Positions 7,901 through 38,825 of a stretch of 43,644 bases of DNA are shown one piece after another. The position numbers were made by a program, and so were the translations under genes. Origin of the DNA: a virus; the IMG/VR virus record IMGVR_UViG_3300025769_000236, positions 1 through 43,644 of that record; one strand, given 5' to 3'. The notes below the pieces were generated by a model. That model made no database searches, had not been told where the DNA came from, and saw only the letters and a program-made list of their open reading frames with translations. Numbering within the stretch: the stretch's first letter is position 1; the number at the start of each line of letters is the position of its first letter.

Positions 7901-10900
7901 TGGCTATTACAAAAGAAGAACTTCAAAAAAGATTAGATGATAAATCTTTAGATCCATCTAAATTAAATCAAAGACAAAGACAAATCATTGATGAGTTAAT
8001 TGATAGAGGTGAATTAAAAGGCCCTAAAATGTCTGTGCTTGGTGCACAAAGACAAACTGCTGCTAAAGAAGTAGCACGTAGAGAAAGTTTTTATAAAGAT
8101 CCAATCGCTGCTGCATTAGAAGCAGAAGATTCTATTTTTAAAGGTAGACCAACCGCAGAACTTGCAGGTGACTTATCGGGATCTATTGCACCCTATGTAA
8201 CCATGAGAAAAAAAATATTTGGTGCAGCCAGATCAGGTAACTTATGGCAAAGAGGACCAGGAAAAATGTTACAAGCTGCTACAAAAGTTGCAGATAAACT
8301 ACCAGGACGATTTAAATTATTAGGTGGTGCATTAAAATTAGTTGCAAGAGTTGCTGATACCCCAGCTAAAGTATTACAAAGTCCATTAGGAAGAGCAGAA
8401 GCTTATTCAGTGTTAGGAGGTTCTGTTGGTGCAGGTGCAGGTTCAGTTACTTACGATATGTTAAATGAACAAGCAGGATTAACAATTGCTAATGCAATCA
8501 CAGATGAGTTTGCAGATTTACCTGATAGAGACATTGATCAAGATATATTACTAAATGCTGCACAAGCTACAAAGACTGCTGCATATTGGAATGCAGGAGC
8601 TGCAGCGCTTACTCCATTTATTAGTGGGCCATTAGGTAAATTAGGTTCAAAATTATTTGGAACCAAAGGAACTAAAGCTAAAGAACTTGCAGAGTATGCA
8701 AGAGATAAAGGATTACCATTACCACTTAACACAGCTATTGAAGATGGTTTGTTATCAGATGTTGGTAGAAACTATTTTAAAACTGTGGGTGTATTTCCAT
8801 TTATATCTGGAATTGGTAGATCAGCATTAGAGGGAGCTGAACAAGCTGCAGGTAAACAATATTTAAATTCATTAGCAGAGTTTGCACCTATTATGAAAAC
8901 CTCAGCATTATCATCATCAATCTACAATCAAGCAGCTAAAGTGTTCCAAGAAAGATCAGCATTGATTGGTGCTAAGTATAAAGCATTTGATACATTAGCT
9001 GACACTGTAGGTAACCCAAAAGTCATTAGAATGACAAACTTGCAAAAAAGAGCTAAAGAATTTTTAAATGAAAATACACAAATGTTTCCTGAATTAACTG
9101 GTTATGTTTCGGGTTTTAGAGAGATAGATATAAAAAACATAGATAAACTTTTAAAAGCTGAAGGTGATCCATTAAATTTATTCATGCAAGCATCTATAGC
9201 TATAAGTGATGAAATGATTACTCCAAAACAATACAAAGGTTTGATGCAAATGATGAATAGAGCTATTGAAGGAACACAATACCAAAACGTCAGAGCATCT
9301 ATTTGGGGTTTAAGAGAAGCTATGGAAAATGATTTAAATGCATTTGGTTCTAATTTAACCAAAGATAATTTTTTAAAAGACCAAGGTATAAGAGAAACTT
9401 ACGAGGAAATGACCAAGCAACAAGGTAAAGAATTTGCTGATGCATACATTGCTAAAAATGTTGCTGATTCAGAACAATTGTACAATAAACTTTATGATGC
9501 TAATGCCACATTCTCAAGTATTATGGGATTCTATCAAAAAATGGGTGTCCCTAAAAAACTAAGAGCATTTGATAGCACATTATTTACTAATAAAGGTGTT
9601 AACAATATTTTAGGTACAGAAAGATTATCAAGAGACCAAGTATTTCAAACAATGGAAAGAGATGTATTTGCATCTAATTCCCCTGATGCCATAGAACAAT
9701 TTAAAGTATTGCTAGGTGCAACAGGAGCAAAAGCAACGGACAATGGAAAACGGTTATTCGATGCAGCTAAATCAAGATATATGTTTAATGCATTCTTATC
9801 TTCATTTGATACTGCAGGAAGTCCAGCGGCTCAATCAATCTTTAAAGATGTAGTTGGTCAATCTGCAGGAGTTAAAGCAGGAACTGAATATGCACAAGAC
9901 GCAATGAAAAGATTAGGAACAGAGGAGTTACAAGCTGCAAGACAATTTAGTATTGATGATGTTAAATTAAACAACGGTATTTACGACATCAGTCAAATTA
10001 GGTTTAGCCCAAAAGATTTTGCTGATTTCAACATTAATAAATTCATGAACAAACTTGGTATTGGTGAAGCGACTTCTGATATTGGTAGAGAGAAGATGGT
10101 TAAATTATTAGGCCAAGATGGAACTAATGAGTTTTACAAATTTACAAATTATATGAAAGCGATTTCGGATGTTCCTCTGTCCGATACATCTACCTTCCTA
10201 CAGAGAAGAATGACACTCGGATCATTTGGATCTGTAGCAGGTGGTATGTTTGTTGGAGCAGGGATGTTTACAGTAAATCCATTTGCACCAGCAATATTTT
10301 TATTATTAGCTAGACGTGCAGGAAGAATGTTAACGGATCCAACTGCAATTAGATATATGAACGATGCATTGTTACCTGAGGAATTGATTAAAGGTTTGAA
10401 AGGTAAGAAGATTGGATTTGATAATAAGTTTAGTATTAGAAGTATTAATCCTAAATTAACTGCAGCAGGCTTAACACAAAAGAGAGAAGCTTTTGCAAGA
10501 CTAATGAATTACTTATCTGATGAAGATAAAGATTTACCTAAAGTAAATCCTAAAACAGTTGATCCAAAAGCAATACAACAAGAATTATTAAATCAAAGTT
10601 ATAAAATTGAACAACCAATTTATGATGAAAAGAATCTACCAAAAGAAACTGTTGAGTCTATGTTTGCACAAGACTTTACAGGATCATCAGGTAATGTTGA
10701 AACAGATAATCAAATGGTTAATTACTTACAATCATCATTAAGAAACAGACAAGAAGTAGAAATTGATGAAGCAGCTAGAGATGAAGAAGCTGATCAAGGT
10801 ATGATTACTGAAGATATAGAACAAGAACTAGTTGATCCAACTGCAGCGATGCAACCCCCAGCAGCACCGGCTACCGGACAAGTGACACCGCAACAAGTAC

Positions 10901-11153: not shown

Positions 11154-11822
11154 ATGAAGCTCATTAAAAAATATCCATACAAACATTACAATAGATTCTC
11201 AGATACCACAGGACGTAAATATTTAGTAGATAGTATTAAAGTACCTAGTGTAACAACAATATTATCTGCAACTAAAGATAAAAGATTTTTAGACAACTGG
11301 AGAAGAAAAGTAGGTAATGAAGAAGCTGATCGTATAATGAACCAGGCATCTACAATTGGTACTGAAATGCACCAAGTATTAGAGTATGCATTGAATGGAC
11401 AAGGATACTACAATGCATCTGAGGAAGGTGCTAAGCCTAGAATGATGGCTAAAACCATACTTAAAAATATAGACATAACTGAAATATGGGGTAATGAAAT
11501 AAGTTTAGAATATCAAAATAAATTTGCAGGTACATGCGATTTAACTGCTGTAGCTTACGGAAAGCCTAGTATTGTAGACTGGAAACAAGCAAATAAACCA
11601 AAAAAAGAAGAATGGGTAGAAGACTATAAACTACAGTTGGGTGCCTATTATTTAGCCCATACAGCCAATTACGGCCCCATAGAGCAGGGTGTAATAGCAA
11701 TCTGTACCCGAGACCTACAATACCAAGAATTTAAGCTCTCAGAGCCTGATTTAAAGGAATATGGAGATAAATTTTTAGAGAGAGTAGAACAGTTTAATAA
11801 GTTAAATCAACCAGCTCTTTAG
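11154..11822 (+). CDS. PD-(D/E)XK exonuclease (RecB/Cas4-like)
   Basis: 222 aa. Motifs in order: PSVTTILS near residue 31, STIGTEMH with His73, ISLEY near 117, GTCDL with Asp129, VDWKQ (Asp142, Lys144) and the QLGAYYLA helix. This is the standard order of RecB-family phage exonucleases. Such enzymes process DNA ends for recombination or degrade host DNA. Its 3' end overlaps, tail to tail, the minus-strand helicase gene by 21 bp. No Shine-Dalgarno is visible before the ATG. It opens the DNA metabolism module. Confidence 0.85.
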   Translation: MKLIKKYPYKHYNRFSDTTGRKYLVDSIKVPSVTTILSATKDKRFLDNWRRKVGNEEADRIMNQASTIGTEMHQVLEYALNGQGYYNASEEGAKPRMMAKTILKNIDITEIWGNEISLEYQNKFAGTCDLTAVAYGKPSIVDWKQANKPKKEEWVEDYKLQLGAYYLAHTANYGPIEQGVIAICTRDLQYQEFKLSEPDLKEYGDKFLERVEQFNKLNQPAL

Positions 11823-13229
11823 TTCTTCTTCACCCAAAGTCTTAGCAGCAACCCTACCTTTTTTAGTTAAAGACTTCATGATAGCTTCATCTAAAGTACC
11901 TTTGGCTACAATATCTACATAGACAACAGTACCCTTTTGACCCATTCTATGAGCTCTATCTTCAGATTGCATTCTGACTTCAAGATTATAATTATTTGAA
12001 TAATAGATTACTGTGTTACAAGCAGTAAGAGTAAGACCAAAACCCCCAGTAGTTGGATTACCAACAAGGAACCGTACCTTAGGGTCCTTTTGAATTTTCT
12101 CGACAGCTTCTTTTCTAGTCTCAACATCTATAGCTCCATAAATACTTACTACTGATTCTTTACCGTATTTTTTTTCTAAGAAAGAAATAATTTCTTGGAT
12201 ATTGTATATATAGTTAGCCCATATAATAACCTTGCCATCTGTTTCTTCAAGTATCTCCTCTAAAGCCTTTAGCTTTTGGGTATGTAACTGCATAATCTCA
12301 CCATCATCATTTTTGGTAAAACCATTACAGACTTGGTGGAGTTTAATTATTTCAGTAAGTTTATTTGAAAAGGATATTGTACTGTCTTCAACAATAGCTA
12401 AAGCATTTGTTCTTAACTTCTCATATATTTTTTTAGCATCCCCCTCTAACTCTATATTTCTTTTCAATCTAACCTTAGGCTCTAAATCTAGACACTCATC
12501 TTTACGAACGCGGCTAGAAAATCCTTTAAGTTTATTTTCTAATTCCTCTAAATTTTTGTAGTATTTAGGTATAGATATCCAACGATTCGATCCAACGGGA
12601 ATATCACCCATTTCTGCATATCTATTTCTAAAAGTTAAATAACTAGTAAAGCCTAAAAGTTCTGGATTTAAGAACGCACATTGTGTATATAGATCCAATG
12701 GAGATTTTGTTATTGGCGATCCTGTTAGGATACGCCTTATGGCGGATAGTGTTCGTAATTTTAATATGTTTTTTGTTCGTATTGCTGTTCGGTTTTTTAT
12801 TGTTGTGGATTCATCCAATACTACCATATTTAATTTATTAGCTTTTAAATAATTCACACAAGCATCCAAACCTCTTTTAGTTGACAAGGCTTCAACATTA
12901 ATTAAAAATATTTTTAAATCTTTTGATTGTTCAAATTTGTAATAATCTTTTGGTTTATCTAAATTCCATCTAAAAACATCATACTTAGCTACATCAGGTA
13001 AATGTGTTTCAATTTCTGTTTCCCAATTAGTATAAACTGATTTAGGAGCAATAATTAATGACGCAGTTATCTTTCTTTGAAAAAATAACCAAGCCATGTT
13101 ATCAATTGTAACTTTTGTTTTGCCTGTACCCATCTCCATAAAATAAGCGTATTCAGATTTATCTGCTGAATTTTTTAACGCTAATCTTTGGTGCTCGTAC
13201 GGCTCAGTCTTATACGGGTATTTCCACAT
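11802..13229 (-). CDS. SNF2-family DEAD/DEAH helicase
   Basis: 475 aa from the ATG at 13229; an in-frame TTG at 13259 would add 10 aa, but it overlaps promoter-like hexamers. N-terminal EPYEHQRLAL (Q-type motif), Walker A MEMGTGKT, motif II VVLDEST, motif III LTGSPITKSPLDLY, then the C-terminal RecA domain with VIIWANYIYNI, FLVGNPTTGGFGLTLTACN and AHRMGQKGTVVYV. All SF2/SNF2 motifs are intact. It is the only minus-strand gene inside the plus-strand replication block. Likely acts in replication or recombination remodelling of protein-DNA complexes. No Shine-Dalgarno; the start lies about 10 nt from a -10-like TATAAA. Confidence 0.9.
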   Translation of the reverse strand: MWKYPYKTEPYEHQRLALKNSADKSEYAYFMEMGTGKTKVTIDNMAWLFFQRKITASLIIAPKSVYTNWETEIETHLPDVAKYDVFRWNLDKPKDYYKFEQSKDLKIFLINVEALSTKRGLDACVNYLKANKLNMVVLDESTTIKNRTAIRTKNILKLRTLSAIRRILTGSPITKSPLDLYTQCAFLNPELLGFTSYLTFRNRYAEMGDIPVGSNRWISIPKYYKNLEELENKLKGFSSRVRKDECLDLEPKVRLKRNIELEGDAKKIYEKLRTNALAIVEDSTISFSNKLTEIIKLHQVCNGFTKNDDGEIMQLHTQKLKALEEILEETDGKVIIWANYIYNIQEIISFLEKKYGKESVVSIYGAIDVETRKEAVEKIQKDPKVRFLVGNPTTGGFGLTLTACNTVIYYSNNYNLEVRMQSEDRAHRMGQKGTVVYVDIVAKGTLDEAIMKSLTKKGRVAAKTLGEEELKSWLI

Positions 13230-13239
13230 CTGAAAACTT

Positions 13240-13281
13240 TTTATATTTTTTTGTTGCAACCGTCAAATAAATATTTATAAG
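13240..13281. promoter_or_regulatory. Divergent promoter pair between helicase and replication operon
   Basis: Plus strand: TTGCAA (13254-13259), 16 bp, TATAAG (13276-13281), feeding the gene at 13300. Minus strand: TTGACG (13266-13261), 15 bp, TATAAA (13245-13240), with the helicase ATG 10 nt later. The two promoters overlap. Hexamers are read directly; activity is inference. Confidence 0.45.
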
Positions 13282-14652: not shown

Positions 14653-16227
14653 ATGGACATACTTGACAAAACCTTGGAAGAGTTTGTAGAACTCTTCCAG
14701 GGCTCTTCCACATATTTTGGTGCTAGTGTTCCATTAGGTCAAAAGCGCGACCGTGATGGAAAACAAGAATTCAGACATTGGGTTGAACCTAATCCAATGA
14801 CCAAGGAACATTGGTTACAACATTTAAAAGGAGAAGCTTACTATGGATCAGTTCCCATTAGAGATGATAATACATGCTCTTGGGGGGTCATCGATGTTGA
14901 TCGTTATAATATACAGCATAAGGAAGTTATATCGATTATACGGAAAAGAAAATACCCATTAGTACCATTTAGATCTAAATCTAATGGTATGCATTTAATA
15001 TTATTCATTGATGGTGTTGTTGCAGCATCTGAAATGAGAAAAAAATTAATTGAGATTGCATCAGACTTAGGTGTTAATGACACCACCACAGACATATATC
15101 CTGCACAGGATGAAGTAGATCTAACTCCTGAAGATTGGAATAAAAAAAGAAAAGGTAACTTTGTAAACTTACCTTATCAAAAAGCTCACATGACTACCAG
15201 AGTTGCTATGGATAATGAAGGTAACTCAGTAAAATTAGAAAACTTATTTAAGTTTGTATCTGAATATAGAATTAATCCAAAAGAATTTAAAAAATTAAAA
15301 GTATTTCAAGATGATGAAACAAAAGATTACCCACCATGTGTAATTAATTTTATGAAAAATAAAGTTAAAAAAGGTGAAGGTAGAAATGATGCAATGTTTA
15401 ATGTTGCAGTGCTAGCTAAAAAAATAAATCCAGATCCAGTTATGTATCAAGATTGGACTAGAAAAATGATGAATAAAGTTTGTAGTGAAGAGTTACATCC
15501 AAAAGAATTAGAAAATATATTTAAAGGTGTTGAGAACAAGGAGTATGCTTATAAATGTAAAACATCAATTGCAAGAATGCATTGTTCATCAAGCACTTGT
15601 TTAAGACGTAAACATGGTATTGGTAATAATGAAGCTTTACCTGAAGTCGGTAAATTATTAAAAGTAAATTCGTATCCAGAACCTTATTGGATACTGCCTA
15701 TTCAAGGTAAATCAATTCGACTATCAACTAAACAACTCTACCAGCAGCAACTCCTTGGAGAACAATTATTAAATTATGATATTGTGTGGCGAACACTTAA
15801 ACCAAGTAAAAGGGATCCAGATCCATATAGAGATTGGTTAGAGGAATTGATTGCAAACAAACAAGACATGGAAGGGTTTGATGCACATGAAGAGCAATCT
15901 GATGTGTTTAATTCTAGAATGACAAGATTTTTAGAAGATGTTGAGGATACTACTGAATTTGATCAAATAGATAATGGTAACATTTGGAAAGATGACACTG
16001 AAATGAGATTCAAATTAGAAACCTTTAAAAATTTTATGAAAAAAATGGGTTACAATTGGAATGAAAAAGAGTGTACTAAATTTTTAGAATCTGGTGGAGC
16101 TAAACCTAAAAAGAAATTTCAAAGTATTGATAGCAGACACTGGCTTGTAGAACTACCTAAACAAACCGAACATAAAAATAAAGATGTCAAATTCGTTAAA
16201 GCAAAAGCTGCATGGGAAGACAATTAA
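14653..16227 (+). CDS. AEP-type primase (TOTE/primase-polymerase-like)
   Basis: 524 aa. N-terminal archaeo-eukaryotic primase core: WGVIDVDRY with Asp81 and Asp83 (motif I), RSKSNGMHLILFID with the S-x-H-like motif II (His114) and Asp120 (motif III), and TDIYPAQ. A Cys/His cluster around residues 300-320 (KTSIARMHCSSSTCLRRKHG) looks like a zinc site. The C-terminal part, about 360-520, is DNA-binding-helix-like and of unknown role. No Walker A is present, so unlike T7 gp4 it has no fused helicase; the separate UvrD-like helicase overlaps its 3' end by 44 bp. Confidence 0.75.
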   Translation: MDILDKTLEEFVELFQGSSTYFGASVPLGQKRDRDGKQEFRHWVEPNPMTKEHWLQHLKGEAYYGSVPIRDDNTCSWGVIDVDRYNIQHKEVISIIRKRKYPLVPFRSKSNGMHLILFIDGVVAASEMRKKLIEIASDLGVNDTTTDIYPAQDEVDLTPEDWNKKRKGNFVNLPYQKAHMTTRVAMDNEGNSVKLENLFKFVSEYRINPKEFKKLKVFQDDETKDYPPCVINFMKNKVKKGEGRNDAMFNVAVLAKKINPDPVMYQDWTRKMMNKVCSEELHPKELENIFKGVENKEYAYKCKTSIARMHCSSSTCLRRKHGIGNNEALPEVGKLLKVNSYPEPYWILPIQGKSIRLSTKQLYQQQLLGEQLLNYDIVWRTLKPSKRDPDPYRDWLEELIANKQDMEGFDAHEEQSDVFNSRMTRFLEDVEDTTEFDQIDNGNIWKDDTEMRFKLETFKNFMKKMGYNWNEKECTKFLESGGAKPKKKFQSIDSRHWLVELPKQTEHKNKDVKFVKAKAAWEDN

Positions 16228-23390: not shown

Positions 23391-23641
23391 TTGCAGAGTA
23401 TTTCCATATCGATATCTTTTCCCTCTCTGCAGTCACGTTTATCATGGACGATGAAACTTATCAGAATTTAGTTAATTACCATTATCATGTAATTGAGTCC
23501 TTAGATGGTGTAGGTAAGATGCGTTTCATTGAAGGGGTATTCGATGATTGGGTAGAAATACGAGAGCTGCAGTATCCTAAAAAGGAGCAATCTCAATACA
23601 GTGAACTACTCACCGACCTTATTAAAGATTTTGGGCACTAA
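23387..23641 (+). CDS. Hypothetical acidic protein
   Basis: 84 aa if begun at GTG 23387, which overlaps the upstream stop as GTGA; an ATG at 23444 (MDDETYQNLVNYHYHVIESL) is an alternative giving 65 aa. Contains GKMRFIEGVFDDWVEIRELQ. No Shine-Dalgarno for either. Acidic, helical; unknown function. Confidence 0.5.
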   Translation: MIAEYFHIDIFSLSAVTFIMDDETYQNLVNYHYHVIESLDGVGKMRFIEGVFDDWVEIRELQYPKKEQSQYSELLTDLIKDFGH

Positions 23642-23642
23642 C

Positions 23643-24026
23643 ATGTCCGAAAAGATTGTGAATGTAAAATACCCTGAGCAAAGGTTGTTCCAGGCAATCA
23701 TTGTCCAGGCGTTTGAAGATTGTGTATTTAAAACGTATTCTAAAGTGGATGCTTATAATAAGGAAGATTCTTATAATTGGTTTAAAGATGGTGGAGAGGA
23801 TTTTGATCGAGTGTGTTGGTTTGCGGATATGGATCCGAGTTTTGTAAGAGACCGTTTTTTAAAATTAAGAAAAGAGGGTGTAATAAAATTTTCTAAATCT
23901 GAACTTACTTGGATGGAGTATAGAGATAGATATAAACGATATCGAGCTGCCAATGATAAGGAATCAAGAAGAATTATTAAAAGACAGATAGACAGGTTAA
24001 CCCTACCAGGCAAAAAAGAAAAATAA
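23643..24026 (+). CDS. Hypothetical DNA-binding-like protein
   Basis: 127 aa from the ATG at 23643, placed 1 nt after the upstream stop; an earlier in-frame ATG at 23601 lies inside the upstream gene. Contains RLFQAIIVQAFEDCVF, a middle WFADMDPSFVRDRFLKLRKE that looks like a recognition helix, and a basic tail RYKRYRAANDKESRRIIKRQ. May be a small HTH regulator; low-level inference. Confidence 0.6.
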   Translation: MSEKIVNVKYPEQRLFQAIIVQAFEDCVFKTYSKVDAYNKEDSYNWFKDGGEDFDRVCWFADMDPSFVRDRFLKLRKEGVIKFSKSELTWMEYRDRYKRYRAANDKESRRIIKRQIDRLTLPGKKEK

Positions 24027-24036
24027 CCTGGCAGGG
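24001..24036 (+). terminator. Hairpin over the stop codon
   Basis: CCCTACCAGG (24001-24010) and CCTGGCAGGG (24027-24036) pair over 9 of 10 positions; the stop codon lies just before the right arm. There is no T-run after it, so it is either a factor-dependent terminator or a 3' mRNA stabiliser. Confidence 0.45.
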
Positions 24037-24310
24037 AATTTAACTAACCTAAGAGAGCATAATGAAAAAAGATGCTCAATATCCATTGTACGTGAATCGG
24101 TAAAATTTAGCAAGGGTTATGTGAGAAAGGTTAAGGAAGAAAGGTTACCGGCCACCGGAAACCGAACCAGTTAAGGTAATCCAGTGGCCGCATATTTATA
24201 AAAAGCATATAATTATTATCATTTTCTGTGATTTGCTGCAATATTAAAAAATTTCTCTATATAGATATTCTAGAGTAATTGAAAAAGAAAAGTGCTCAGG
24301 GGGTAAAAGA

Positions 24311-24442
24311 GGTGTCCCTGGTGTCCCCGAAGAAGAATAATGTATATATATCAATACTTTAAGTACGTTTTTATGGTGTCCCTATGGTGTCCCTATGGTG
24401 TCCCTAAGGGACACCTAATCAATAAAAGTAATATAGGGTGTC
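24311..24442 (+). repeat. GGTGTCCC repeat array
   Basis: GGTGTCCC occurs at 24311, 24320, 24375, 24386 and 24397. The last three are in perfect 11-bp tandem units TATGGTGTCCC (24372-24404). An inverted copy GGGACACC at 24408-24415 makes GGTGTCCCT-A-AGGGACACC a perfect palindrome (24397-24415). A partial GGTGTC is at 24437. Confidence 0.9.
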
Positions 24443-24474
24443 TTGCGGGAACTCAACTTTTGCTTTTTTGAAAG

Positions 24475-24504
24475 TTGGACAGGGGTTAAAATAATCTATA
24501 TAAT
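24475..24504 (+). promoter_or_regulatory. Promoter of the small terminase gene
   Basis: TTGGAC (24475-24480), 18 bp, TATAAT (24499-24504); the ATG is 11 nt downstream with no Shine-Dalgarno. The segment AAAATAATCTATATA here also occurs before the methyltransferase gene at 38244. Confidence 0.5.
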
Positions 24505-24515
24505 AGAAAATTATT

Positions 24516-25040
24516 ATGCCACTGAAAAAGAAAGAACTGCGAACTGAAGATGACTTGACTTTAAAGCAAAAGCATTTCATCGATATCTATGTTAAGAATT
24601 GGGGCAACATCACAAAAGCTGATGCTCTAAAACAGGCTGGCTATGATTGTAAGAATGAGAATGATTATTCTGTAATTGCATCTAGGTTAACAAATAGAAA
24701 ACTAAATCCTCATGTTGTTAAATACATGGACAAAATTTACAAAGAAGAATGTGCTAAATACGAAGGTGACAACCTTAGACGTTATAAACGATTAGAACGT
24801 ATAGCTCTTAGTGCGGAAGCTGATAAACAATATGCTGCTGCAATCAATGCTGAATATAGATCTGGTCAATTGGCTGGTCAATATGTTGATAGAAAAGAAG
24901 TTAAAGTAACAGGGTTGGAGGGCATGTCACGTGAAGAACTTGAAAACAAACTCAAGGAACTTTCAAACAAGATCGATGGTTACAACGCAAAGACCATTGA
25001 CGTTGTCGAAAGCACAACTGAGCAAATTGAAGAAAGCTAG
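24516..25040 (+). CDS. terS: Terminase small subunit
   Basis: 174 aa. The N-terminal part LTLKQKHFIDIYVKNWGNIT followed by KADALKQAGYD and ASRLTNRKLNPHVVKYMDKI is the HTH DNA-recognition region of Terminase_2-type small subunits (LTxKQxxFxxxY, AxxxAGY). A helical middle and acidic C-terminal tail would form the oligomerisation part. It recognises the packaging site on phage DNA. Only 3.8 kb downstream comes the large subunit, an unusual separation. The GGTGTCCC array lies immediately upstream, where pac or cos sites often are. Confidence 0.8.
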   Translation: MPLKKKELRTEDDLTLKQKHFIDIYVKNWGNITKADALKQAGYDCKNENDYSVIASRLTNRKLNPHVVKYMDKIYKEECAKYEGDNLRRYKRLERIALSAEADKQYAAAINAEYRSGQLAGQYVDRKEVKVTGLEGMSREELENKLKELSNKIDGYNAKTIDVVESTTEQIEES

Positions 25041-28812: not shown

Positions 28813-30291
28813 ATGGATTTAGATCGACTTAGTGACGAAGAACTTAAGGATATAATTTTAAAAAAGCAGCTAGAATGGATTAAGCTGTGCCAGGATAATT
28901 TTTTAATTTTTGCTCAAACTGTTTGGCAAGATTTTATATATCGTAAAACTGATGATCCTAAGAAATATGGACATCATCAAATTATTGCAAACGCGTTTCA
29001 AGATATCGCTGATGGCGATGCAAAGAGGCTCATCATTAACATGCCTCCTAGACATACTAAATCTGAATTTGCATCTTATTTATTTCCTGCGTGGTTCATT
29101 GGCAAGTATCCAAAGAAAAAGATTATGCAGGTATCTCACAACGCAGAACTCGCATCTAGGTTTGGTAGTAAGGTTCGTAACTTAATGGCGACCAAGGAGT
29201 ATAAACAGATCTTTGGAAATGTTACACTTCGAGAAGATAGTAAGGCTAAAGGCCGTTGGGAGACCAATCATGGTGGAGAATATTTTGCAGCGGGGGTAGG
29301 CGGTTCTATTACAGGACGAGGGGCGGACTTACTTATTATTGATGACCCACATACTGAACAAGATTCATTATCCGATACTGCTATGGAGAGAGCATATGAA
29401 TGGTATAGCTCTGGTCCACGACAACGTTTACAACCTGGTGGAAGAATCTTAGTGGTCATGACTCGTTGGGCAACTGATGATTTAACAGGAAGACTAGTTA
29501 AGGCTCAAGCAGAAACCAAAGCTGATAAATGGAAAGTGATTGAGTTCCCAGCGATACTGGACAACGGAAACCCTGTGTGGCCTGAGTATTGGTCATTAGA
29601 AGATTTAGAATCAGTTAAAGCATCTATTTCAACAAAGAACTGGAATGCACAATACATGCAAGATCCAACTTCTGAAGAAGGTGCAATTATCAAAAGAGAG
29701 TGGTGGCAAGATTGGGATAAAGATTATTTACCAAAATTATTACATGTCATTCAAAGTTATGATACTGCATTCAGTGCAAAAGAAACTGCTGACTATTCTG
29801 CTATCACTACTTGGGGAATCTTTGAACCTGTAGAAGGTTATGAGAAAGCAATCATATTATTAGATGCAATCAAAGGTAGATATGATTTTCCAGATTTAAA
29901 AAATATTGCGTTAGAGCAATATCGATATTGGGAACCCGAAACTGTTATCATTGAAGCCAAAGCTTCTGGTCAACCGTTAATTCATGAATTAAGGCGAGCC
30001 GGTATCCCTGTAATTGATTTCGTTCCTGCAAGAGGACGGGACAAGCATACTAGAATAAACAGCTGTTCTCCGGTGTTCGAGAGCGGCAATGTATGGGCAC
30101 CTTTGGACGAACACTGGGCACAGGAAGTTATTGAGGAATGTGCAGCATTTCCAAACGGCCAGTATGACGACTATGTTGATAGTATGACACAGGCTGTGTT
30201 AAGATATCGACAAGGTGGATTTGTTTCTACATATTCAGATGACTGGGATGATCCGCCAATGAAAGTAGAACGAGATTATAAATATTACTAA
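28813..30291 (+). CDS. terL: Terminase large subunit
   Basis: 492 aa. ATPase: Walker A-like NMPPRHTKSEFASYLFPAW (residues about 76-94; Thr82 replaces the usual Gly), Walker B LLIIDDPH (Asp177, Asp178), coupling motif VVMTRWATDDLTGRL. Nuclease (RNase H fold): QSYDTAFSAKETADYSAITT with Asp317, then IIEAKASGQPLIHELRRAG and DYVDSMTQAVLRY. Length is normal for phage TerL. It packages DNA into procapsids through the portal two genes on. TAATG couples it to the next gene. Confidence 0.95.
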   Translation: MDLDRLSDEELKDIILKKQLEWIKLCQDNFLIFAQTVWQDFIYRKTDDPKKYGHHQIIANAFQDIADGDAKRLIINMPPRHTKSEFASYLFPAWFIGKYPKKKIMQVSHNAELASRFGSKVRNLMATKEYKQIFGNVTLREDSKAKGRWETNHGGEYFAAGVGGSITGRGADLLIIDDPHTEQDSLSDTAMERAYEWYSSGPRQRLQPGGRILVVMTRWATDDLTGRLVKAQAETKADKWKVIEFPAILDNGNPVWPEYWSLEDLESVKASISTKNWNAQYMQDPTSEEGAIIKREWWQDWDKDYLPKLLHVIQSYDTAFSAKETADYSAITTWGIFEPVEGYEKAIILLDAIKGRYDFPDLKNIALEQYRYWEPETVIIEAKASGQPLIHELRRAGIPVIDFVPARGRDKHTRINSCSPVFESGNVWAPLDEHWAQEVIEECAAFPNGQYDDYVDSMTQAVLRYRQGGFVSTYSDDWDDPPMKVERDYKYY

Positions 30292-31340: not shown

Positions 31341-31350
31341 GGAGGGACAC

Positions 31351-35642: not shown

Positions 35643-35761
35643 GGAAAGGATTAAGTGGAGGAGTTAAATCTGGGCCACCGCCTAAGAAAGGACCTAATCC
35701 ACAAGGAATAAAACTCAAAAATGCAAAAAAGCTCCTACGAAAAACTCTCAAAAAAAAGTAA
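35639..35761 (+). CDS. 40-aa GPPPKKGPNPQ peptide
   Basis: MRKGLSGGVKSGPPPKKGPN then PQGIKLKNAKKLLRKTLKKK, overlapping the portal stop (ATGA). Short proteins with GPPPKRGPNPQ are common between portal and downstream genes in marine phage genomes as I recall. The basic tail overlaps the homing endonuclease gene by 41 bp, hinting that the endonuclease insertion remodelled it. Confidence 0.65.
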   Translation: MRKGLSGGVKSGPPPKKGPNPQGIKLKNAKKLLRKTLKKK

Positions 35762-36071
35762 AATTATCTGGCTCTCTGGTTTATTTGATGGCGAGGGTAG
35801 TTTTGGCATTTGGTCTAAAGGTGTAGGTAAAAAAAGAGCCTTTGCAGCTACGATTGAAATGGGTGATGAGGATATTATCCAAAGATTTCAAGATATGTTC
35901 GGTGGTGTTGTTTTCAAAACTAAAAAAAAGGAAGAAAGATTCAGACAATTATGGCGATGGAGATGTGTAGGTGATAGGGCTTACGATTGTATTGATAAGA
36001 TGATAGAATATATGGGAATAAGGAGACAGAAAAAATACAATGTGGTTAAAAGCGATATCTCTAGCCGTTAA
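35721..36071 (+). CDS. LAGLIDADG-type homing endonuclease
   Basis: 116 aa. IIWLSGLFDGEGSFGIW is the LAGLIDADG motif (LSGLFDGEG) with the metal-binding Asp/Glu region, followed by AATIEMGDEDIIQRFQDMFG and WRWRCVGDRAYDCIDKM, the usual layout of single-motif enzymes that act as dimers. Only one motif and about 116 aa, normal for LAGLIDADG_1 homodimers. It sits free-standing between portal and holin genes, overlapping both neighbours. Spread by cutting endonuclease-lacking phages is the family role. Confidence 0.8.
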   Translation: MQKSSYEKLSKKSKIIWLSGLFDGEGSFGIWSKGVGKKRAFAATIEMGDEDIIQRFQDMFGGVVFKTKKKEERFRQLWRWRCVGDRAYDCIDKMIEYMGIRRQKKYNVVKSDISSR

Positions 36072-38208: not shown

Positions 38209-38237
38209 TTGCATCCAGATTTAAAATAATCTATATA
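38209..38237 (+). promoter_or_regulatory. TTGCAT-class promoter with leaderless start
   Basis: TTGCAT (38209-38214), 17 bp, TATATA (38232-38237), then 6 nt to the ATG at 38244, placing +1 at the start codon. AAAATAATCTATATA is shared with the small terminase promoter. Confidence 0.55.
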
Positions 38238-38243
38238 TTTGCT

Positions 38244-38825
38244 ATGACCATCAGAGGTGATAGCACAGAATACGATCTACTTAAAAAGTGGTGTGAGACA
38301 TTACCATTTTTTGAAGAACCAAAATCAGTAACAACTTGTGAAATAGGTGTAAGAGAAGGACTTGGATCTAAAGTTATTATGTTAGGTTTAAGAGCAAGAT
38401 TAGGTAATAAAACACCTTATCAACATATTGGTATAGATCCTTATGGAAATTTAAAATACCAACACTACGATAACTCACCTGAATACACAGCTGATTATAC
38501 AGATGAGATGAGATTAGAAATGCAAAAAGATTTTTCTGATCATCCAGAATTTACTTTCTTTCATATGAAGGATACTGATTATATGAATTTCTTTGCCGCA
38601 CAGGATAAAATATATGATCTTGTTCACTTTGATGGACCTCATATGACTAAAGATGTAATTACAGAAGCTATCTGGTTTGCTAATAGATGTAGAAAAGGAT
38701 CCAGATTTATATTTGATGATTACAAAAAATATACAATGGAAGATATATCTAAAGCATTAACTCACTACGGTTTCAATATTATGCAAGCTGGTGAAAACAA
38801 AATAATGCTACAAAAATTAAAATAA
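38244..38825 (+). CDS. Class I SAM methyltransferase (Methyltransf_24-like)
   Basis: 193 aa. TCEIGVREGLGSKVIMLGLR is the SAM-binding motif I; GIDPYG (motif II-like acidic end), YDLVHFDGPHMTKDVITEA (motif IV) and GSRFIFDDYKKY follow, the layout of Methyltransf_24/class I O- or N-methyltransferases. Substrate cannot be read; phages carry similar enzymes near glycosyltransferases or head genes. No Shine-Dalgarno; leaderless start predicted. Opens the head operon that continues to the capsid gene. Confidence 0.75.
   Translation: MTIRGDSTEYDLLKKWCETLPFFEEPKSVTTCEIGVREGLGSKVIMLGLRARLGNKTPYQHIGIDPYGNLKYQHYDNSPEYTADYTDEMRLEMQKDFSDHPEFTFFHMKDTDYMNFFAAQDKIYDLVHFDGPHMTKDVITEAIWFANRCRKGSRFIFDDYKKYTMEDISKALTHYGFNIMQAGENKIMLQKLK

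Follow-up and report, generated by a model that had tools for sequence, protein, structure and literature searches.

Genes at the terS locus

The window (the whole stretch of DNA that was analysed, 43,644 nucleotides) is a virus contig in which the small terminase gene, terS, was located at 24516-25040 on the plus strand. Its product has an N-terminal helix-turn-helix of the SF6/SPP1 G1P-like kind and was matched to PHROG 51 (E 1.1e-7). In structure comparison, residues 13-76 of the TerS model resembled the domain with which SF6 G1P binds DNA (2cmp, Z 7.7 over 56 residues; 4zc3, Z 7.5; rmsd 1.7), and 3zqq, 6w7t and 7joq were also among the best structural matches, a set that includes solved small terminases. 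Foldseek alone returned no match for the TerS model at E ≤ 0.001. A Z below 8 is moderate by itself, and the PHROG 51 match supports the assignment of TerS as a small terminase of the SF6/SPP1 type. The large terminase gene, terL, lies further down the same operon (28813-30291, plus strand; Terminase_6N/6C above cut-off), and its product weakly resembles DNA maturase B (E 0.0014).

The array described below is preceded by a gene for a small all-helical protein (23601-24026, plus strand, with its start at the GTG at 23601 or later), which was considered as a candidate partner. The AlphaFold model is helical with very high confidence (pLDDT 94); comparisons of the fold gave Foldseek E values above 1 and a best Z of 5.9 over 43 residues, and neither a fold nor a family was assigned. 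This gene precedes nearly all arrays for which enough sequence was available, is found in HTVC023P, and was also located at 10226-10666 of relative L190.

Several other features of the window were recorded. The segment 26001-27000 has a GC content of 0.47 against about 0.34 around it and is of unclear coding; it is possibly acquired DNA. At 35721-36071, amid structural genes, a weak LAGLIDADG endonuclease match just under the Pfam cut-off marks a possible homing gene. The replication region contains an AEP-TOTE type primase gene (14653-16227, plus strand) and, on the opposite strand, an SNF2-type helicase gene (11802-13259, minus strand).

Source and relatives

Within the phage collection, the DNA of this region matched a single entry, Pelagibacter phage HTVC023P, and the match lies at terS. 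The two resemble each other in gene order around terS, and TerS of the HTVC023P type is about 50% identical to that of the window. HTVC023P-type phages have been described as widespread SAR11 phages, and genomes assembled for this group from viromes were circularised through end overlap of contigs (PMC9599517). A scan of bacterial genomes gave 11 hits, mostly in unrelated organisms. One of the hits was to the Pelagibacteraceae single-cell assembly AG-919-D18, in which a contig has the array with terS downstream and probably comes from an infected SAR11 cell; the phage group was tied to SAR11 because of this contig.

Repeat array and its geometry

A gap without coding extends from the conserved small gene to terS (24027-24515) and measures 489 bp, slightly more than the 480 bp given in the preliminary description. 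Within it, exact copies of the 8-mer GGTGTCCC form two clusters. The left cluster consists of R1 (24311-24318) and R2 (24320-24327, 9 bp from R1), and the right cluster of R3 (24375-24382), R4 (24386-24393) and R5 (24397-24404), all on the plus strand, followed by the inverted copy R6 (24408-24415, minus strand). R5 is also the left arm of a perfect 19-bp palindrome (24397-24415). These five direct copies and one inverted copy, the 11-bp tandem at 24372-24404 and the palindrome all lie where they had been reported. The clusters are separated by a 47-bp AT-rich spacer (24328-24374), in which TATCAATACTTTA at 24349-24361 agrees with the IHF consensus WATCAANNNNTTR at every position. The whole module of about 230 bp reads R1-R2, spacer, R3-R4-R5 in 11-bp steps, inverted R6, TCTTGCGGGAAC, a -10-type promoter element and the terS operon.

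Only one further copy of GGTGTCCC occurs in the 43.6-kb window, at 9544. The total of seven compares with 0.25 expected, and none of 100 dinucleotide shuffles reached seven; a chance origin was ruled out by this test together with the 187 unique arrays found in viral contigs. The array is genuine and well beyond chance. An RNA element was also rejected, as an Rfam search of the window gave no match and no terminator-like hairpin was present at the array.

Two elements that had been attached to the array were separated from it. The supposed sixth partial copy (GGTGTCTT, about 24437) overlaps the separately conserved TCTTGCGGGAAC element, which in most relatives has no GGTGT in front; its source is the downstream conserved element TCTTGCGGGAACTCAAC (24441-24457, plus strand), kept in many relatives. 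The supposedly related palindrome GGGACACATGTCCC at 31344 is imperfect and corresponds to a ribosome-binding site plus Met-Ser-Leu codons, the relatives having a Shine-Dalgarno sequence (AGGAGGGAC) and ATG-TCC-CTN at this site. It was rejected as a member of the array system because TGTCCC stays where the array uses the variant word GGTGTATC, so that the motif does not depend on the array word.

Conservation and linkage to terS

All viral contigs were searched with the DNA pattern GGTGTCCCTATGGTGTCCC alone, and 116 stretches were returned. Where terS was found it lay downstream on the same strand in every case (111/111), at a distance of 100-1301 bp. The remaining five stretches stop 48-1022 bp after the match, short of the maximum spacing of 1301 bp, so that terS could not be judged in them. 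One of these five comes from a 128-kb record (L169) that has an isolated copy pair only and is probably unrelated to the array family. Broader scans brought the array-bearing loci to 272, a figure in which some contigs count twice, and yielded 187 unique arrays; the long genomes examined have one array each plus scattered single copies. The check proposed in the preliminary description, for the same array before terS in relatives, was thus strongly positive, which supports a terminase-linked site. This linkage does not distinguish a pac or cos site from a promoter-control site.

The geometry is rigid. The step from R1 to R2 measures 9 bp in 174/175 arrays, R2 and R3 are separated by 55 bp (140 arrays), 53 bp (21) or 54 bp (9), and in 153 arrays the inverted core comes 3 nt after that of R5. 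A GC-rich palindrome with arms of at least 5 bp precedes the array in 77/114 unique relatives, where shuffles gave about 5%, and its usual place is 19-18 bp before R1; most relatives have TACCCCnnGGGGTA at this position, and the window has a degenerate form (GTGCTCAGGGGGTA, 24292-24305). The IHF consensus was matched with at most one mismatch in 51% of spacers of the window's clade versus 17% in shuffles, and no such enrichment was found in HTVC023P-clade spacers. Bending by IHF is therefore put forward as a suggestion.

Promoter of the terS operon

A promoter-like site, TGGACA-17-TATAAT, lies at 24476-24504 on the plus strand and has 11/12 consensus matches. Its conserved part, AATAATCTATATAAT (or the same ending in GT; 24490-24504 in the window), immediately precedes the operon's first ORF and, judged by its sequence, looks like a -10 region. 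Alongside the 187 unique arrays the form ATCTATATA[AG]TA occurs 173 times, and the rest of the 1.44 Mb scanned contains two further instances. The promoter element usually lies 75-78 nt past the last direct repeat, with distances of 85-101 nt also seen. In many relatives further genes, taking up to about 1.7 kb, are inserted between promoter and terS, so that terS can lie over 1.6 kb away, and it is therefore the promoter and not terS that keeps a near-constant distance to the array. This element, like the concerted switching of the repeat word described below, had been missed in the preliminary description. A second perfect AATAATCTATATA is present at 38225-38237, just before an ORF at 38244 (193-aa gene); as the sequence is perfect only here and in the terS copy within the window, this site is a possible second promoter of that type.

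Word variants

Arrays of the window's clade consist wholly of GGTGTCCC (115 unique) or wholly of GGTGTATC (72 unique), with no mixed arrays. Positions 6-7 are invariant within each word type when counted on R2-R5 (R1 was excluded for R1/R2 misassignment). Arrays of the HTVC023P type use the word CTAGGAAA with R1-R2 at 8 bp and R2-R3 at 43 or 44 bp, which is shorter than in the window's clade by about one helical turn, and have the same 11-bp tandem and inverted copy; one relative has CTAAGAAA instead of CTAGGAAA. In the sequences compared, the geometry is thus constant across clades and the word changes.

Two relatives (L064 and L065) have 100% identical TerS, one with GGTGTCCC and the other with GGTGTATC. 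In this pair, about 330 bp before terS, the DNA from the downstream element to terS differs by few bases and the array word differs. From these sequences the array looks to have been swapped as a unit, one junction of the exchange lying near TTGCGGGAACG.

Candidate readers of the word were compared between the word groups. Within TerS, residues 53-54 (modelled helix 48-58) were the internal positions that best separated the groups, Ile54 being the commonest residue with GGTGTCCC (60/81) and outside the six commonest with GGTGTATC; per-residue phylogenetic contrasts rested on few independent switches. A simple base-reading code of TerS fails because of the pair with identical TerS and different words, which contradicts TerS as a strict base reader: either this TerS tolerates both words or TerS is not the reader. 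For the upstream small protein, residue 59 was promising on few sequences and not on a larger set, and two of these proteins (from L217 and L062) that are 94% identical are found with different words and an unchanged residue 59. The ParB-like protein was rejected as it is 99.6% identical across words. No word-exclusive gene was found among 14 long genomes, which are few and partly incomplete. By these sequence comparisons no neighbouring protein tracks the word.

Interpretation of the array

The array was read, at a probability of about 0.55, as the core of an SPP1-like site of the pac type, at which packaging would be initiated and whose DNA would also belong to the late promoter region. This reading was favoured because SPP1 pac is the closest organisation. 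SPP1 pac spans direct repeats, late promoters and the terS start, and gp1 binds it at two regions that flank the cut (PMC6316719; PMC4737164). The array and the SPP1/SF6 pac sites thus share direct repeats in two regions, at or next to a late promoter and the terS start, and the modelled TerS has the DNA-binding fold of G1P. They differ in that the array consists of six near-perfect 8-mers, rigidly spaced, one of them inverted, upstream of the promoter, and has two interchangeable words that never mix.

On the packaging-initiation reading, a TerS ring with one helix-turn-helix per subunit would engage two repeat clusters, the left comprising R1-R2 and the right R3-R4-R5 with the inverted R6. 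R3, R4 and R5 would lie on one face of the DNA, because the 11-bp period is about one turn, and the AT-rich spacer would let the DNA bend, perhaps with the help of IHF or HU. TerS would then bring TerL, which would make the first cut nearby so that packaging starts, and occupancy of the array could couple terS and late transcription to packaging. These steps of binding, bending, cutting and coupling are what we infer from the arrangement.

Contig ends were analysed in 134 whole contigs found via the symmetric repeat pattern. Contig starts within 135 bp upstream of R3 numbered 13 against about 2.7 expected, an enrichment of about five-fold (P about 5e-6), and ends within 135 bp downstream numbered 2, near expectation. 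Packaging that begins at a pac site could produce an excess on one side only, and the result lends this reading weak support. It was given little weight because the ends are scattered over 130 bp, left and right do not differ significantly (Fisher P 0.064) and assemblies also break at short sequences that strains have in common. Two further points count against the packaging-initiation reading: identical TerS proteins are found with either word, and what stays at a near-constant distance from the array is the promoter element and not terS. The SF6 TerS domain binds pac with little sequence preference, and the small terminases of SPP1 and SF6 are interchangeable although SF6 lacks the SPP1 boxA repeats (PMC4737164). 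In these phages, too, the repeat sequence can therefore vary independently of TerS, a further likeness to the present case; the weak preference leaves the strict copy uniformity unexplained.

Pure control of transcription was regarded as the main rival, because it accounts well for both the spacing of the promoter and the strictness of the word, and was itself considered rather unlikely. A base-specific phage or host regulator on R1-R6 would switch the AATAATCTATATAAT late promoter, and packaging would start elsewhere. Such a regulator predicts that words are not mixed within an array, as was found, and the conserved promoter does stand near-constant from the array while the distance to terS varies with inserted genes; in SPP1, late transcription also requires an unidentified early factor (PMC6316719). 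R1-R2, however, lie about 180 bp before the promoter, which is far for a simple activator, and the candidate regulators (the upstream and ParB-like proteins) do not track the word, with no exclusive gene in the 14 genomes.

The terminase association proposed in the preliminary description was supported, and its other option, an iteron origin, was weakened. A site of fixed ends was judged improbable, whether as a cos site of the lambda type, in which the copies would be R sites as in cosB, IHF would bend the spacer and the palindrome would correspond to cosN, or as the limit of a direct terminal repeat. The order palindrome, repeats, IHF-like spacer, repeats and terS recalls the lambda order cosN-cosB-Nu1, in which repeats likewise flank an IHF site upstream of the small terminase gene; the palindrome is common in relatives, the IHF consensus is enriched in the window's clade, and TerL has its weak likeness to a maturase. 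Against this, TerS matches a different type from Nu1, the window has no kept cosN-like palindrome, its own being degenerate, the IHF site is not kept in the HTVC023P sister clade, and the contig ends spread over 130 bp and not at one base, giving no sign of fixed ends. Genomes circularised through end overlap (PMC9599517) are ill-suited to cohesive ends; they suit terminal repeats. Least probable of all, and very doubtful, is a replication origin of the iteron type, at which the AT-rich DNA would unwind. As in the iteron origins of plasmids and SPP1 oriL/oriR, tandem short repeats adjoin AT-rich DNA, with one array per genome, and the array lies between replication and packaging genes. The cumulative GC skew minimum suggested as a check was absent, skew being positive on both sides of the array; skew follows gene direction, which makes this a weak test for a phage. 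Unlike an iteron origin, moreover, the array has no recognised initiator nearby, the upstream genes being without family match, and it is always beside the terS-operon promoter and not tied to a replication gene. The readings were accordingly ranked with packaging initiation above control of transcription, a cos site or terminal repeat less likely and an iteron origin last.

Significance

No description of the packaging or late-promoter site of HTVC023P-type phages was found in the literature searched. The array is a site resolved to single bases whose word varies naturally among relatives, and it bears on the question of how a TerS ring selects the genome of its own phage when its helix-turn-helix domains have weak specificity; pairs of phages that share an identical TerS and differ in word are ready-made for tests. 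A more tentative proposal, which we hold to be rather unlikely, is that the array acts as an exchangeable identity cassette, in which the mutually exclusive words GGTGTCCC and GGTGTATC are block-swapped among co-circulating SAR11 phages whose flanking DNA is otherwise almost identical, and a reader other than TerS, encoded by the host or at another phage locus, distinguishes the words. If this were true, late activation and/or packaging would be label-specific, and the genomes of co-infecting phages would not be served by each other.
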